The notes under the pieces: model-generated | The model's input: the letters and a program-made list of their open reading frames with translations, nothing else | What the model was told of the DNA's origin: nothing | The model's database searches: none | Shown: in pieces, positions 38,802 to 44,999 of the stretch | How the letters are laid out: every line of letters begins with the position of its first letter | Position numbering within the stretch: position 1 is the stretch's first letter | IMG/VR virus record: IMGVR_UViG_3300036846_000442 | Span: 1-47,556 of that record | Source of the DNA: a virus | Length of the DNA stretch: 47,556 nt | Reading direction: 5' to 3' (one strand) | Position numbers and translations under genes: made by a program

Positions 38802-39241
38802 TAATGCTTCCTTTCCAGGTTATACAGCTTGTACGGAACACCGTAGGCGGCGGCGACTTGTTTCGCAATCCGCCAACGAGAGTACGGGACCAGCAGCTTC
38901 TTTGGGTAAGCAAACTGAGCCCTCCATCCTGTATCTGCGGGGATGATCCCGCCCCACAAATTCACCTGCCCAGCGATGGAAACTACGCCACGCGGGACCG
39001 AGAACAAACCGTTCCCCTCTCTGGCATAGCCCATCGCGAACAGGCGGTTGAATGTGGTCGTCGCGTATGTGCCGCATCTGCACCTTGGATCCGGCACTTC
39101 GTGGTTATGCAGTTCGCACATCGCTTCAAACGTCTGGTGCGGCTCCCACATGCTCATATGCATGATCGAATACAGGAGGCCATTCTCGACTATCCAAGCT
39201 CTGTATCCGACTGCTGGTTCGATTGCGTCAGGAACTTTCAT
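38801..39241 (-). CDS. actinophage early protein with CxCG motif
   Basis: 146 residues from ATG 39241; a longer in-frame opening runs backwards through the ATPase gene. GYRAWIVENGLLYSIMH, HQTFEAMCELHNHEVPDPRCRCGTYA, GQVNLWGGIIPADTGWRAQFAYPKKLLVP. This Trp/Cys pattern resembles a family of unknown function in actinophage replication regions. Cys/His residues may bind zinc. The overlap with the ATPase gene is 14 nt. Confidence 0.68.
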   Translation of the reverse strand: MKVPDAIEPAVGYRAWIVENGLLYSIMHMSMWEPHQTFEAMCELHNHEVPDPRCRCGTYATTTFNRLFAMGYAREGNGLFSVPRGVVSIAGQVNLWGGIIPADTGWRAQFAYPKKLLVPYSRWRIAKQVAAAYGVPYKLYNLERKH

Positions 39242-40223
39242 CAAGTGTTTCGACCAAGGCGTCGGGCAGTCTCCACCACCACTCGTTGCCGCGCTTGATC
39301 GATTCAACCTCCGCTTCCGCCTTGGCTCCTTCCAAGGTCCGTTTGGTGATACGATAATGCTTGGCGTCCTCGATGATCTCGGTCGCCCGCCGCTCGTGAT
39401 TTGGCGCGGCCCCGAGGTACTCAATCAAGAACTCAACCGCCTGCTCCCGCTTTGTCGGCGGTCGGCCCTGCTTCCCACCCTTGCTCGCTTTGGCAAGCAT
39501 CACCATCGGGTCGAAGCCATCCTCAATCTCGCCTGTGTAGGTGAGAAGTGGCTGCGGACGCTCGATGCCAGGAACGTCGGCCTCGTCCATCTCGAATTCG
39601 AGTGGCAGAGGATCGTCACGCAGCTGGCTCTTGATGTTGCACATGACGACGCGATCCTTGTCTTCAGGATCACGACCGACGATATAGATCATGCGACCGG
39701 CGGCGGGCAAGCCTGAGCTTGCACCACCGATGGCATTTAGCGGATGGCTGTTCTTCGCCACGTTCTTGATAACGTGGTCTACGAGAATGATCGCGCATCC
39801 TGTTTCCTGCGCAAGCTTCTTGAGTGGACGCGTGGCCTTGCGGATGCTGTCGCTTGTCCGCTTGACGCCCTCGCTCAGATGCTCGTTTACTGGGTCGCAG
39901 ATCAGGAGCTTGACCCTGTAACGCTCGATGAACTTCCTGGTGCGCTCGATGTCCTCAGGGAACAGCGGATCGAAGTCATACTCGATTCGCTTCTTGTTCG
40001 CCCCGACCGCCGACAGGCGCGGCCCGAGCATGGTGCTGTCGATTTCCTCCGTCTGTGACAGAATCACAGTGCCCTTCTTAGCAACATCAGTTGCGATGCG
40101 AACGCCCAGGAGCGACTTGCCGCCACCCGGCCTGCCCGCTATGACGTGGACCGTACCCTCAAAGATACGATCCATCCATAACGACTTAATGTTCGCATTC
40201 TGGATTTTGTTGGCTCTAGCCAA
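39228..40223 (-). CDS. RepA/DnaB-like RecA-fold ATPase
   Basis: 331 residues. Walker A AGRPGGGKS at 29-37, Walker B-like KLLICDPV, and DHVIKNV/GRMIYIVGRDPE further on. A C-terminal winged-helix-like part (EIIEDAKHYRITKRTLEGAKAEAEVE) suggests DNA binding. Similar to AAA_25/RepA-type helicases and to the C-terminal half of the 43101-44999 primase-helicase. Unwinds DNA or loads helicase at the fork. Confidence 0.78.
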   Translation of the reverse strand: MARANKIQNANIKSLWMDRIFEGTVHVIAGRPGGGKSLLGVRIATDVAKKGTVILSQTEEIDSTMLGPRLSAVGANKKRIEYDFDPLFPEDIERTRKFIERYRVKLLICDPVNEHLSEGVKRTSDSIRKATRPLKKLAQETGCAIILVDHVIKNVAKNSHPLNAIGGASSGLPAAGRMIYIVGRDPEDKDRVVMCNIKSQLRDDPLPLEFEMDEADVPGIERPQPLLTYTGEIEDGFDPMVMLAKASKGGKQGRPPTKREQAVEFLIEYLGAAPNHERRATEIIEDAKHYRITKRTLEGAKAEAEVESIKRGNEWWWRLPDALVETLDESS

Positions 40224-40224
40224 C

Positions 40225-40656
40225 TTATACCTCCTTGATTTCTACAGGAATGTTGAGCCTACGAGCGATGTTTATCGTCATCCATTCGCCAGAGCGGTAG
40301 AATTTAGCCGACCTGACGAACGCTACCAGCTTGTCCGACCCCTGCACCATTAGCTCATTCCGCTGGCGATATGGCTCAAGCCCCAACGGGCACTGATATA
40401 CTTCGCTAGCGTATCCCAGCATTTCCTCGACCAGCTGTTCGTTATGAGGCGCGCCCGGAACATATAGCTCCAGATCGAACATGAATACGTGCGCGGCCTG
40501 AGCGGCGAGAGTGTCGACGCCATACGCGCATCCTGATCGCCAAGTTGGCCAATTCGGGTCCTCGTTGGCTACTACATCGAGCGCATCCTGTACGAAGCGC
40601 ACCTGATTATCCATCAGGCGGCTCGGGCCTGTGAACGATATAATCATGCTACTCAT
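40225..40656 (-). CDS. SLOG-domain nucleotide-binding protein
   Basis: 143 residues from ATG 40656 (ATG 40647 is the alternative). IISFTGPSRL, SGCAYGVDTLAAQAAH and SDKLVAFVRSAKFY form a SLOG (DprA/LOG-like) Rossmann fold that binds nucleotides. In phages such proteins may manage nucleotide pools or take part in signalling. Coupled to its neighbour by an 8-nt overlap. Confidence 0.7.
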   Translation of the reverse strand: MSSMIISFTGPSRLMDNQVRFVQDALDVVANEDPNWPTWRSGCAYGVDTLAAQAAHVFMFDLELYVPGAPHNEQLVEEMLGYASEVYQCPLGLEPYRQRNELMVQGSDKLVAFVRSAKFYRSGEWMTINIARRLNIPVEIKEV

Positions 40657-40810
40657 CCATGGTAGTGAGAAGGTCCGTAACCCAATCAAGTTCCAGGACC
40701 GCCTTCTCAATCCGGTCCTGAAGGATTGCCGCGAGCGTATCAACGCCCGCGTCCTGCGACAAGGCGTCGTTCTTGACGCCTATGGCGATGCGGAAGATAA
40801 TGTCTTCCAA
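40649..40810 (-). CDS. small hypothetical protein
   Basis: 53 residues from TTG 40810 behind GGGGAGG-N4; ATG 40840, immediately after the tRNA-like element, would add ten residues. EDIIFRIAIGVKNDALSQDAGVDTLAAILQDRIEKAVLEL is helical and resembles a short helper protein. First gene of the leftward block, right behind the long RNA. Confidence 0.62.
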   Translation of the reverse strand: MEDIIFRIAIGVKNDALSQDAGVDTLAAILQDRIEKAVLELDWVTDLLTTMDE

Positions 40811-40822
40811 ATTACCTCCCCG
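40808..40822 (-). repeat. CGGGGAGG-N4-NTG motif 7
   Basis: Spacer TAAT and TTG; starts the 40649-40810 gene. The base before CGGGGAGG differs from most copies (T instead of G). Confidence 0.65.
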
Positions 40823-40840
40823 ATGTGGTTTGTACTTCAT

Positions 40841-40903
40841 TCGCGCAGGCGGGGAATTGAACCCCGCAACAAGATAAATCGTGGCCTTGTTCCATTCTGC
40901 GCG
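40841..40903 (-). ncRNA. tRNA-like element (acceptor and T-arm, no D-arm)
   Basis: Minus strand CGCGCAG pairs with CTGCGCG as a perfect 7-bp acceptor; a GCGGGG-TTCAATT-CCCCGC T-arm has a near-consensus T loop. Between them only ~30 nt remain, with an AACAAG/CTTGTT stem around a 12-nt loop. A D-arm and a standard anticodon loop are missing, so it cannot be an ordinary tRNA. It resembles the 3' module of tmRNA or other tRNA-like RNAs. Confidence 0.55.
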
Positions 40904-41354
40904 CGTGTCCCTTAGTGGTCTGCCAGCCTACACTCTCGATGTAGGTTATGGCTATTGCGTCGTCTGTCACACGGCTTGCACTCGCACTGTACTGTGACCC
41001 ACGCAGGTTTACGTGATTCCGCGGCTACCATCGTCCCTTGTTTTGCTCATCTGCTTGCTAATCGGTTCATCGCTTCACTCCCTCCGGTCCATCGCGTTTC
41101 GCTCAAAAAGGTAGAGCTACTAACTTCACCGGACTTCGCTCAGCGTCCCTCCGATCACTCGGGCAGGATCGGCTAACAAAGTCTGCGTCACCGTTCTGTG
41201 GTCTCTGCTTCCTGGCTTAGCCTGCCAGTCTCCGGGGGTCAGGACGGTCCCCCTTGCTCCTCACGGTCCACCGAATCACTACCCGCGAGGCCACCCTACA
41301 CTTTCACCCTTCACCGACTTGTTTACTTCACTGTTCCCGGCGCGGGGCGTCCGC
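40841..41354 (-). ncRNA. long structured non-coding RNA
   Basis: About 510 nt with no gene, downstream of promoter 41361-41389. Helices seen in order: GGGGC-GGAC-GCCCC at the 5' end, GGGGG/CCCCC, CTGGC/GCCAG, CCGATC/GATCGG, GTCC/GGAC, TCCGGT/ACCGGA, GTCACA/TGTGAC, CCTACA/TGTAGG and the tRNA-like 3' end. Many GAA/GNRA-like loops and repeats of GATGRACCG type. No class identified; the size is near the large RNAs known from phages (GOLLD or ROOL), but this is a guess. Reading continues into the leftward operon, so it may be a processed leader. Confidence 0.6.
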
Positions 41355-41360
41355 CCCTAG

Positions 41361-41389
41361 AGCTTAGCAGAATCCGCTCGCAGACGCAA
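41361..41389 (-). promoter_or_regulatory. promoter for long RNA and leftward block
   Basis: Minus strand TTGCGT, 17 nt, TGC-TAAGCT. The predicted start is near 41354. Likely the main promoter of the leftward early operon. Confidence 0.65.
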
Positions 41390-41418
41390 GCAAGTGCTAG
41401 GTCACTTCGCGTCATGGG

Positions 41419-41433
41419 CGGGGAGGTTTCCTG
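41419..41433 (+). repeat. CGGGGAGG-N4-NTG motif 8
   Basis: Spacer TTTC and CTG on the plus strand, between divergent promoters. It shares GGGCGGGGAGGTTTC with motif 9. Confidence 0.6.
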
Positions 41434-41470
41434 GCGCATTTTCAGGTCAGGATTACACTGTTGAGGAAGG

Positions 41471-41508
41471 AAGGCCGCAAGAAGTAGCGCGCGAGTTCTC
41501 GCGGCCTT
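41471..41508 (+). terminator. AAGGCCGC hairpin upstream of resolvase gene
   Basis: AAGGCCGC pairs with GCGGCCTT, and AGAA with TTCT inside. Related to the hairpin at 42592-42632 (shared AAGGCCGCAAGAA). It lies upstream of the resolvase promoter, so it may stop minor read-through or act as a protein site. Confidence 0.4.
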
Positions 41509-41533
41509 GCGCTCAGCATGGCCTGCCTGAAAG

Positions 41534-41542
41534 TGCTAAACT
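41534..41542 (+). promoter_or_regulatory. extended -10 promoter for leaderless resolvase mRNA
   Basis: TGC-TAAACT followed 6 nt later by ATG 41549, which puts the transcription start on or next to the start codon. There is no ribosome site. The -35 box is weak (CAGCAT at 17 nt). Leaderless starts are common in actinobacteria. Confidence 0.5.
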
Positions 41543-41548
41543 GCTAGC

Positions 41549-42067
41549 ATGGCCAACTCAACATCGATTGCCGTCCTTGCCATCGACCCCGGAGGGACCA
41601 CTGGCTGCGCCACGGCCCTCATTGATCTCCGACAGATCACAGTGGCAAAGGCGATGCGGAGAGCACACGCCAAAAAGAACATAAATACCTGGACTGAGAA
41701 AGGAAGCTACACTGAGCAGGCATGGTCGATAGCGCGGAAGATCGTGGACTTTAACTTCAACGTTCACATCGAGCGCTCACTAGTCGAGAACAGCAACTTC
41801 CTCGTCGTGTGCGAGAAGTTCGAGATCAGACAAATGGGCGCCGACCTCTCACCAGTCAGAGTCGCAGCCGGAATCGAGACACTGATCTGTGATGTCTTTA
41901 AGGACCGCTGGGACCATGACGGCTTCTACAGCTTGCAATCAGCCAGCGAGGCCAAGGGTTTCTGTAACGACGAAATGTTGGATAGATGGGGATTGCTCAA
42001 GGGCCGCACGCCTCATGAACGTGATGCCCTCAGGCATATCGCCAGACGTATAGACAAACTCCTATGA
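41549..42067 (+). CDS. RuvC-like Holliday junction resolvase
   Basis: 172 residues. AIDPGGTTG at the N-terminus is the RNase H-fold catalytic-Asp strand of RuvC-like resolvases, followed by LVVCEKFEIRQ and a C-terminal ERDALRHIARRID with the late acidic residue. It resolves branched DNA made by replication/recombination. The mRNA looks leaderless. Transcribed away from the leftward block and toward the lysozyme gene. Confidence 0.78.
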   Translation: MANSTSIAVLAIDPGGTTGCATALIDLRQITVAKAMRRAHAKKNINTWTEKGSYTEQAWSIARKIVDFNFNVHIERSLVENSNFLVVCEKFEIRQMGADLSPVRVAAGIETLICDVFKDRWDHDGFYSLQSASEAKGFCNDEMLDRWGLLKGRTPHERDALRHIARRIDKLL

Positions 42068-43100: not shown

Positions 43101-44999
43101 ATGCTCATGAAAGGGACCGAGGAGTATGTCTACCAGGATGAGAACGGAGTCGAGCAGTACAAGGTCGTGCGGCGACCTGGCAAGAGATTCCACATCGAAA
43201 GTCTGAATGGGAGCGGCATTTGGGAAAAGGGTCTCAACGGTAAGCGGCCAGTACCTTACAACCTTCCAGCAGTTAAGGTCGCTGTCAGACATGGGCAGGC
43301 AGTATACATCTGTGAGGGAGAGCAGGATTGTAACAGCGCCGCAGAACATGAGATGGTTGCAACTTGCAATCACGGCGGTGCAGGGAAGTGGACAGATGAG
43401 CATAGCAAGTGGCTAATCGGCGCTCATCGAGTCATCATAATTTGGGACCTCGATGCAGCTGGGGAGAAACATGCTCTTGAGGTAAGCCAATCGCTGCGTC
43501 GTGTTGGGGTTAGCGATATCCAGTACAAAGTCGCGGCTGCTGGCAAAGACCTTACAGATCATCTAGGCGAGGGTTACGAGGAGAATGAGCTTCTCGACAA
43601 GCGTCCGGTAGCCAAGCCGTCCGAGCAAACTGATCAGCTAGAAGTTACTGGCGACGAGTTCGATCCTGGTATGTTGCAACTTGTGCTTGGGAAGTTGCGA
43701 CAGATCGGCCAGGTCACAGCAGAGCACGGCAAGATTCATCAGTACAACGCGATCTGCCCTGCACACGATGATCACGCACCTAGCATGAGCGTAAGTCTAG
43801 GTGATCGAGGCCAGATCATCTTTAAATGTCACACTGGTTGCTCATTCGAGAAGATCGCCAATGCGCTCGGAATCAGACGAGTAGACCTCTCAAGAGGCGA
43901 TGGAAAAAATAAGTCCCGTGAGGAGCGTGTACATGATCGTGTTGAGTATCTGTCGATTAATGACGATGCCCAAACGATCCGCAACCTACAGAGAGCAAGG
44001 AACATCGTGCGCATCAAAGAGGACGACGGCCACACCGGAGCCGACGAGCTACTGATCCCTGAAGAGGAAGCGATCTGGGTATTTGATAGCTGGTTCCCAA
44101 ACGGCTCGATGGTACTCCTCAACGCTGATCGCAAGACTGGCAAGACTCGGTTGTGTCTTTCGATAGCCAAAGCGATCTGCGATCAGGAGCCGTTCCTGGG
44201 TCGCTTTGAAACTACTGTGCCAGACGGCGCTCGGGTGCTTTACTTGAACTACGAAATGCCAGCCGCTACATTCCGTAGATGGTTCCGAGAGTCTGAGTTC
44301 AAACGTCCAGAGAACTTTCTGGTGCAGCATCTCAAAGGCCGCTCACTGCCGTTTAATGATATGACAATTCGAGATGAGCTTGCGAACTACTGTGCTCGCA
44401 ATGAGGTTCACCTTATCATTTTCGATACCCAGATTAAAGCTATGACGGACCTCGGCGTAAACGAGAATGATAACTCCGAAGTGACTATGTTTCATGCGGC
44501 TCTTGAGGCCCTTATGGAAATCTCAGGCGTGCCCAACGTGATACTACCTCATCATATTGGAAAGTCTGACCGCGTGCATGGTCGTGGAGCTTCGCGCATC
44601 GAGGATGGTCCTGACGTTATATGGACGCTCTCCAAGAGTGACGACGGTGACGATCTGTCAGGCCGTGTTCCCAGGCTCCTAGCCGGAGAGGGCAGGGACG
44701 TGCTGCGAGAGCCGGTCAGTCTGGCGTACAACGATGACACAGGCTTGTACACATATGAGGGTCGGACGGTCGAGGCGCAGGTCCGACTCGACAAGGTGGA
44801 CGCTCTTGTGGGTCGTGTGCTGGAGTTTTGGAATAGTTCTGGCCGCTGGCCGAACTTTCGTGAGACGCGCGGTATGTGTACTGGGCGCGGTGCGGCGCGG
44901 TCTGAGTTAATTGAATCGGCGGTTGATCGAGGGTTGTTGCGCAGGGCCCATGTCAAAGGTTCCAGAGCAGTTCGTTACAAGGTTCCTGATGAGAGTTGA
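43101..44999 (+). CDS. Toprim / CHC2-like zinc finger / RecA-like primase-helicase
   Basis: 632 residues. Toprim: EGEQD (72-76) and DLDAAG (116-121). Zinc finger between: ICPAHDDH... with C219, H222, C243 and C247. RecA-like helicase: NADRKTGKT (341-349), IIFDTQ Walker B, and LPHHIGKSD. A winged-helix-like end follows. The order Toprim, zinc, helicase is unlike DnaG (zinc, Toprim, helicase); no separate DnaG catalytic N-domain is visible. Primes and unwinds at the adjacent origin. The start has a weak ribosome site. Confidence 0.8.
   Translation: MLMKGTEEYVYQDENGVEQYKVVRRPGKRFHIESLNGSGIWEKGLNGKRPVPYNLPAVKVAVRHGQAVYICEGEQDCNSAAEHEMVATCNHGGAGKWTDEHSKWLIGAHRVIIIWDLDAAGEKHALEVSQSLRRVGVSDIQYKVAAAGKDLTDHLGEGYEENELLDKRPVAKPSEQTDQLEVTGDEFDPGMLQLVLGKLRQIGQVTAEHGKIHQYNAICPAHDDHAPSMSVSLGDRGQIIFKCHTGCSFEKIANALGIRRVDLSRGDGKNKSREERVHDRVEYLSINDDAQTIRNLQRARNIVRIKEDDGHTGADELLIPEEEAIWVFDSWFPNGSMVLLNADRKTGKTRLCLSIAKAICDQEPFLGRFETTVPDGARVLYLNYEMPAATFRRWFRESEFKRPENFLVQHLKGRSLPFNDMTIRDELANYCARNEVHLIIFDTQIKAMTDLGVNENDNSEVTMFHAALEALMEISGVPNVILPHHIGKSDRVHGRGASRIEDGPDVIWTLSKSDDGDDLSGRVPRLLAGEGRDVLREPVSLAYNDDTGLYTYEGRTVEAQVRLDKVDALVGRVLEFWNSSGRWPNFRETRGMCTGRGAARSELIESAVDRGLLRRAHVKGSRAVRYKVPDES

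Follow-up and report, generated by a model that had tools for sequence, protein, structure and literature searches.

In the window analysed here (the whole stretch of DNA under study, an IMG/VR record of 47,556 bases from an uncultured phage), we identified a predicted noncoding RNA of about 515 nt that lies on the minus strand and closes with a tRNA-like structure (TLS). On balance, we think that this is a large noncoding phage RNA of a new family, in which the TLS lets host tRNA enzymes separate the RNA from the mRNA of the replication genes. A covarying RNA fold, the TLS, the strand, the promoter layout and the gene order are conserved across three phages; we infer that the RNA is expressed and that its TLS is cleaved and receives CCA. 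The locus contains the following features:

41549..42067, plus strand, divergent neighbour gene (phrog_1981, function unknown; present in relatives too)
41361..41389, minus strand, predicted promoter (TTGCGT-17-TAAGCT, consensus match)
40841..41356, minus strand, predicted noncoding RNA of ~515 nt (gene-free gap conserved, fold covaries, no shared ORF)
40649..40810, minus strand, small downstream gene (TTG start at 40810, 31 nt past the TLS)
39228..40223, minus strand, DnaB/AAA_25-type helicase-like gene of the leftward block (query for finding relatives)

The gap between the divergent phrog_1981 gene and the leftward block spans 40841-41548, and the leftward block starts with the small gene, followed by a GTP-binding-domain-like gene (phrog_289) and the DnaB/AAA_25-type gene. 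No DNA-level similarity to the window was found among the records of the cultured-phage collection. The DNA polymerase III alpha protein shares at most ~42% identity with its Microbacterium phage counterparts, and on this ground the host is probably an actinobacterium. The small downstream gene has a phage-type RBS (CGGGGAGG, 40822-40815) and an in-frame ATG at 40840, immediately past the TLS discriminator. We note that start codons in this phage group are repeatedly associated with one motif, CGGGGAGG plus ~4 nt and then NTG (CTG in some cases); it precedes many of the leftward genes (e.g. minus-strand positions 40822, 38661, 37321, 36201, 34460, 31273 and 29365 in the window) and is also found on the plus strand (e.g. 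41419, 45525 and 46031).

Using the helicase-like protein as the query, we were able to find three related contigs (L002, L003 and L004), with protein identities of 85–87%. L002 and L003, from samples 3300015372 and 3300015371, are identical in the RNA region, and the distinct RNA members number three, all from uncultured phages. The relatives share with the window the promoter, the gene-free stretch (~670 nt in both), the RNA body, the TLS and the downstream gene order; the window RNA lacks ~150 nt that both relatives have between the body and the TLS. Among the three phages the mean column identity of the RNA is ~65%, as compared to 85–89% identity at the protein level. Searches of viral contigs with DNA patterns of the two conserved blocks returned 55, 66 and 19 stretches; beyond the three known phages no stretch had further RNA similarity or a TLS, and the remaining ones look like chance matches. 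One pattern match from an actinomycete MAG (L198), along with two further ones, was likewise rejected as chance. A helicase profile search of viral and genome contigs gave no additional relatives, distant blastn searches gave nothing for all three RNAs against cultured phages and nothing for the window RNA against plasmids, and no recognisable RNA was found in phages whose polymerases are 38–62% identical (G004-G010). In Microbacterium phage Krampus, the 487-nt gap before the primase contains no TLS on reading.

Two side observations concern the flank of the locus. In each of the three phages, an inverted repeat with GGCCGC-type arms precedes the RNA promoter by ~100 bp (window 41471-41508; L002 2087-2132; L004 1455-1499), with terminator, operator or origin hairpin as its candidate roles. 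In L002 only, the RNA promoter and the divergent gene are separated by an A+T-rich GIY-YIG endonuclease gene (1608-2078); its confinement to one relative suggests that it was inserted recently next to the RNA locus.

The inferred 5' end of the RNA is set by the promoter and its 3' end by the TLS. The -35 box TTGCGT is at 41389-41384 and the -10 box TAAGCT at 41366-41361, with a 17-nt spacer ending in TGC; the counterparts are TTGCAA-17-TAGCAT in L002 (2222-2250) and TTGCAA-17-TACCCT in L004 (1554-1582), so that the three phages have in common TTGC at -35, a 17-nt spacer ending in TGC and a -10 box of the form TAnnnT. A strict consensus promoter scanner did not list TTGCGT-17-TAAGCT. The earlier note had placed a phage-type promoter here: a promoter match is present at 41389-41361, whereas the label fits less well, and it is better called a putative host sigma-70-like promoter whose -10 box has TGC as an upstream extension. 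The coordinates given by that note are correct at both ends (41389 is the first base of the -35 box, and 40841 is the TLS discriminator), and so is its description of the gap as gene-free, as there is no minus-strand ORF of at least 60 aa inside the RNA region and no single reading frame common to the three homologues. A coding gene on either strand was rejected, the three homologues sharing no frame; short protein-level matches are scattered over many frames of both strands of the region, as expected of conserved noncoding sequence.

The first of the two structured parts is the TLS, whose elements are as follows:

40841..40903, minus strand, TLS, 63 nt (same layout at L002:2845-2928 and L004:2174-2254)
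40903-40897/40848-40842, minus strand, acceptor, 7 bp
40896-40892, minus strand, unpaired AAUGG replacing the D-arm, 5 nt
40891-40885/40874-40868, minus strand, middle hairpin, 7 bp with a 10-nt loop
40867-40862/40854-40849, minus strand, T-arm with a 6-bp stem (loop UUCAAUU, 40861-40855)
40841, minus strand, unpaired discriminator A (CCA not encoded)

The acceptor pairs in all three phages (CGCGCAG/CTGCGCG, AGCGTGG/CCGCGCT and AGCGTGA/TCACGCT), with four of its seven pairs changed on both sides; together with the T-stem it makes 13 bp, in which 39 of 39 cells pair and six of the 13 pairs are changed on both sides. Both the base preceding the acceptor and the discriminator are A in all three phages, and the stem therefore cannot lengthen. 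The T-loop is UUCAAUU in the window and UUCGAUC or UUCGAUU in the relatives. The folding z-score of the TLS is -3.25 in the window (-3.3, -5.4 and -7.7 for the three phages). Thus the tRNA-like 3' end described in the earlier note (acceptor of 7 bp, T-arm with UUCAAUU loop, neither a D-arm nor a normal anticodon loop) holds up.

We scanned 543 kb of the window and related phages with a descriptor of the TLS (7-bp acceptor and a T-arm with TTCRANN loop), and found nine sites as compared to 0.25 expected in shuffles: four ordinary tRNAs, the three TLSs and two further intergenic elements. Exactly one site, the TLS, is in the window. One of the two intergenic elements (L170:3289-3359, minus strand, i.e. 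43289-43359 of G003, IMGVR_UViG_3300036841_000070) has a perfect acceptor and T-arm (TTCGATC loop) and an irregular middle, and receives no ARAGORN call; it lies between a FAD-binding-type gene and an NT5C-type gene, 14 nt ahead of the next start codon, and no tRNA-like element accompanies this gene pair in the window. The other (L164:6976-7038, plus strand; G008, IMGVR_UViG_3300021067_000001) is a tRNA-like element of 63 nt, compact and with hardly any unpaired bases in its junctions, ~8 nt past one stop and ~26 nt ahead of the next start; it suggests that phages may use tRNA-like punctuation between their genes more often. Since tRNAs are present in phages of this group and such odd intergenic elements are found in G003 and G008, the TLS could be viewed as a decayed phage tRNA gene beside an unrelated structured intergenic region. 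We find this hardly credible, because compensatory changes preserve the acceptor and T-arm: at this one place, each of the three phages keeps perfect pairing despite two-sided changes.

Phages carry tRNAs and decoys, and the conserved T-arm and acceptor with a free A discriminator would also suit a TLS that engages host translation, tRNA-modifying or tRNA-targeting defence factors, the body serving to present or protect it. The TLS has no anticodon-like 7-nt loop, however, and its middle arm is wholly different among the phages (7 bp in the window and 15–17 bp in L002 and L004), and we give this explanation little credence.

The second part is the RNA body, for which we were able to define these elements:

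41234..41253, minus strand, hairpin H1, GGGGG/CCCCC (loop GUCCUG, 41245-41240, is a pseudoknot strand)
41212..41228, minus strand, hairpin H3, 5 bp (two pairs changed on both sides)
41201..41207, minus strand, pseudoknot 3' strand CAGAGAC, partner of the H1 loop
41142..41193, minus strand, core helix P4-P9, 5' strand (holds the conserved GACGCAGACU...AGCCGA)
41022..41074, minus strand, core helix P4-P9, 3' strand (terminates in the conserved GGRACGAUGGUAGCC)

The sequence blocks kept in all members are GACGCAGACU..AGCCGA and GGRACGAUGGUAGCC. The long core helix is agreed on by RNAalifold and by minimum-energy folds computed separately for the window and for L002, which have 29 pairs in common, and its helices change sequence while keeping their pairing (P8: UGAUCGG/CCGAUUA in the window, UGCUAGU/GCUAGCA in L002 and UGCUUGA/UCAAGCA in L004; P7: CUGC/GCAG, CUAG/CUAG and CAAG/CUUG, respectively). 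A local hairpin CUAG-CCGAGUG-CUAG in L002 and L004 was rejected, as only the long-range core helix pairs in the window too. The pseudoknot is also conserved with changes on both sides (GUCCUG/CAGAGAC with one bulged base in the window, GUUCGG/CCGAAC in L002 and L004; one pair meeting an alignment gap was read by eye). Over ten helices and three sequences, 97.5% of 162 cells pair, and 18 pairs are changed on both sides, as compared to 6.6±2.0 in shuffles and 0–1 in slid controls; the fold was derived from the same three sequences and is thereby biased against the slid versions, but neither control comes near the two-sided counts. Among the 54 pairs plus the acceptor there are 12 G-U cells and no A-C cell, which identifies the minus strand as the functional RNA. 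The single-sequence stability of the whole region is modest (z of -1.5 to -1.7), so folding energy alone is insufficient proof; covariation supplies it.

Known families do not account for the RNA. ARAGORN predicted no tRNA or tmRNA in the window, and an Rfam scan agreed with the earlier note that no class is recognised, giving no family for the RNA at either the gathering thresholds or a relaxed E-value. A tRNA was rejected (no ARAGORN call, no D-arm, and a middle-arm loop of 10 nt); so was a tmRNA, as both acceptor strands lie at 40903-40897/40848-40842 and not at the ends of the RNA, and neither ARAGORN nor Rfam reports one; a group I intron or other Rfam ribozyme has no Rfam match. Covariance models of ROOL and GOLLD had no match in the window, L002 or L004 even at E-values up to 5–10. 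Under relaxed settings, the window TLS alone matches mascRNA-menRNA (RF01684), its best Rfam hit below threshold, over the whole model with 19.7 bits (cut-off 42.5), and the TLSs of L002 and L004 have their best tRNA-type match in tRNA-Sec (RF01852) at 16–17 bits, below the threshold of 47. The reading in the earlier note, a large phage RNA with a tRNA-like fold at its end, is thus supported by covariation, by no coding gene and by no Rfam family, and the gene-free region has a conserved, covarying secondary structure. The processing by RNase P or CCA enzymes that the note thought possible would fit the substrate features, which the TLS has and conserves.

The place of the RNA in the genome bears on two further explanations. 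No terminator-like site is found in the gap of the window, L002 or L004, and the next gene starts 31 nt past the TLS in the window and ~26 nt past it in L002 and L004. The whole structure could then be the 5' UTR of the leftward replication operon, with the TLS as a switch that, through processing or sensing, governs how the mRNA is translated or how stable it is, and with a body that has no separate life. L002 and L004 agree with this in having the start-associated motif CGGGGAGG plus TTG inside the TLS middle hairpin (in L002 the hairpin frame is TTG ATC TCT GCT CTC GGC CCG GCT TTC TGA). However, the window has its RBS outside the TLS, the body far exceeds a typical leader in size and complexity, and the most conserved blocks are ~170–400 nt from the start codon; we regard a purely cis-acting leader as rather unlikely, and the RBS-like CGGGGAGG and TTG in the two relatives as hints that the TLS has a translational role too.

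The global minimum of the cumulative GC skew of the window is at 41379, 23 bp from the inferred RNA start, and is a possible replication origin; the minima of the relatives are ~0.3–0.8 kb upstream of the RNA start. ColE1 RNA II is a primer RNA of comparable size and structure, and the neighbours here are helicase and primase-type genes, so we considered a transcript that begins at the phage origin and has a part in initiation (e.g. as a processed primer). We judge it very unlikely: divergent transcription alone predicts a skew minimum, a search for iterons and typical origin repeats found none, and a primer requires no conserved TLS.

In the mechanism that we favour, separation of a large noncoding RNA from the replication-gene mRNA by host tRNA enzymes, a strong host-type promoter at the divergence of the two gene blocks would drive the structured RNA, and transcription would run on, without a terminator, into the leftward operon. 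The RNA would fold as a pseudoknotted multi-helix body, followed by a TLS that, lacking a D-arm, would present a 13-bp acceptor/T-arm stack and a canonical T-loop, the element that RNase P and RNase Z of bacteria recognise; bacterial RNase P gauges the acceptor/T-arm stack (PMC4919913). Host tRNA enzymes would cut 5' and/or 3' of the TLS: a cut by RNase Z (plus CCA addition) would part a stable RNA of ~515 nt from the mRNA behind it, in which the first gene is 26–31 nt on, and a cut by RNase P would detach the 63-nt TLS from the body, as happens in MALAT1. Two features count against processing by tRNA enzymes: the stack of 13 bp (7+6) is one longer than in most tRNAs, and the T-loop has no D-loop partner for docking, a part that GG in the TLS junctions might take. 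The body presumably acts alone in trans, perhaps in a structural role like ROOL and GOLLD.

Several known RNAs resemble this one in part. The tmRNA likewise has a tRNA-like domain without a D-stem in a large RNA and is an RNase P substrate, but its acceptor strands are at the two ends of the molecule, whereas here both are within the last 63 nt and no tag frame is recognised. The tRNA-Sec shares the 13-bp acceptor and T-arm stack, built as 8+5 and not as 7+6; the TLS, in addition, has neither a D-arm nor an anticodon loop. C4 and M3 are small RNAs, while the RNA here has a ~515-nt structured body ended by the TLS. The M3 RNA and the C4 antisense RNA are phage-encoded and cut by host RNase P (PMC11143913), whose substrates beyond tRNA include tmRNA, phage M3 RNA, phage-derived C4 RNA and mRNAs (PMC11143913). 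Nearest to the phage RNA in size and setting are ROOL and GOLLD, large ornate pseudoknotted phage RNAs of 600–800 nt, of unknown function and often near tRNAs (PMC12286853); they show no sequence or structure match, and we did not find a covalently attached TLS described for them. Few large structured phage RNA classes are known, and the RNA here adds an unrelated family, with a covarying TLS as a built-in clue to its biogenesis.

The closest parallel in layout is with MALAT1 and NEAT1 (mascRNA/menRNA), also long noncoding RNAs with a ~60-nt tRNA-like 3' end and a poor or missing D-arm. Their tRNA-like 3' structure is cut by RNase P and RNase Z, and they have been termed the only lncRNAs using the tRNA-processing machinery (PMC12941219). 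MALAT1 and NEAT1 are animal RNAs, while the phage RNA scores below the RF01684 cut-off and has no sign of the U-rich/A-rich triple helix (no U-rich motif pair was found by inspection of the window sequence; L002 and L004 have a purine-rich tract before the TLS, but no U-rich partners). The resemblance is surely convergent, not homologous. In the predicted structure, a long noncoding RNA terminates in the tRNA-like element at its 3' end, as has so far been described chiefly for these two animal RNAs. Tentatively, and with somewhat less than even confidence, we propose that this is the first phage or prokaryotic lncRNA with a 3' end made in the manner of MALAT1 on a D-arm-less TLS, which would also serve as punctuation before a replication operon. 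RNase P and RNase Z cleavage and CCA tails offer a simple handle on the role of such RNAs, and a MALAT1-like layout in a phage RNA would be a striking convergence.
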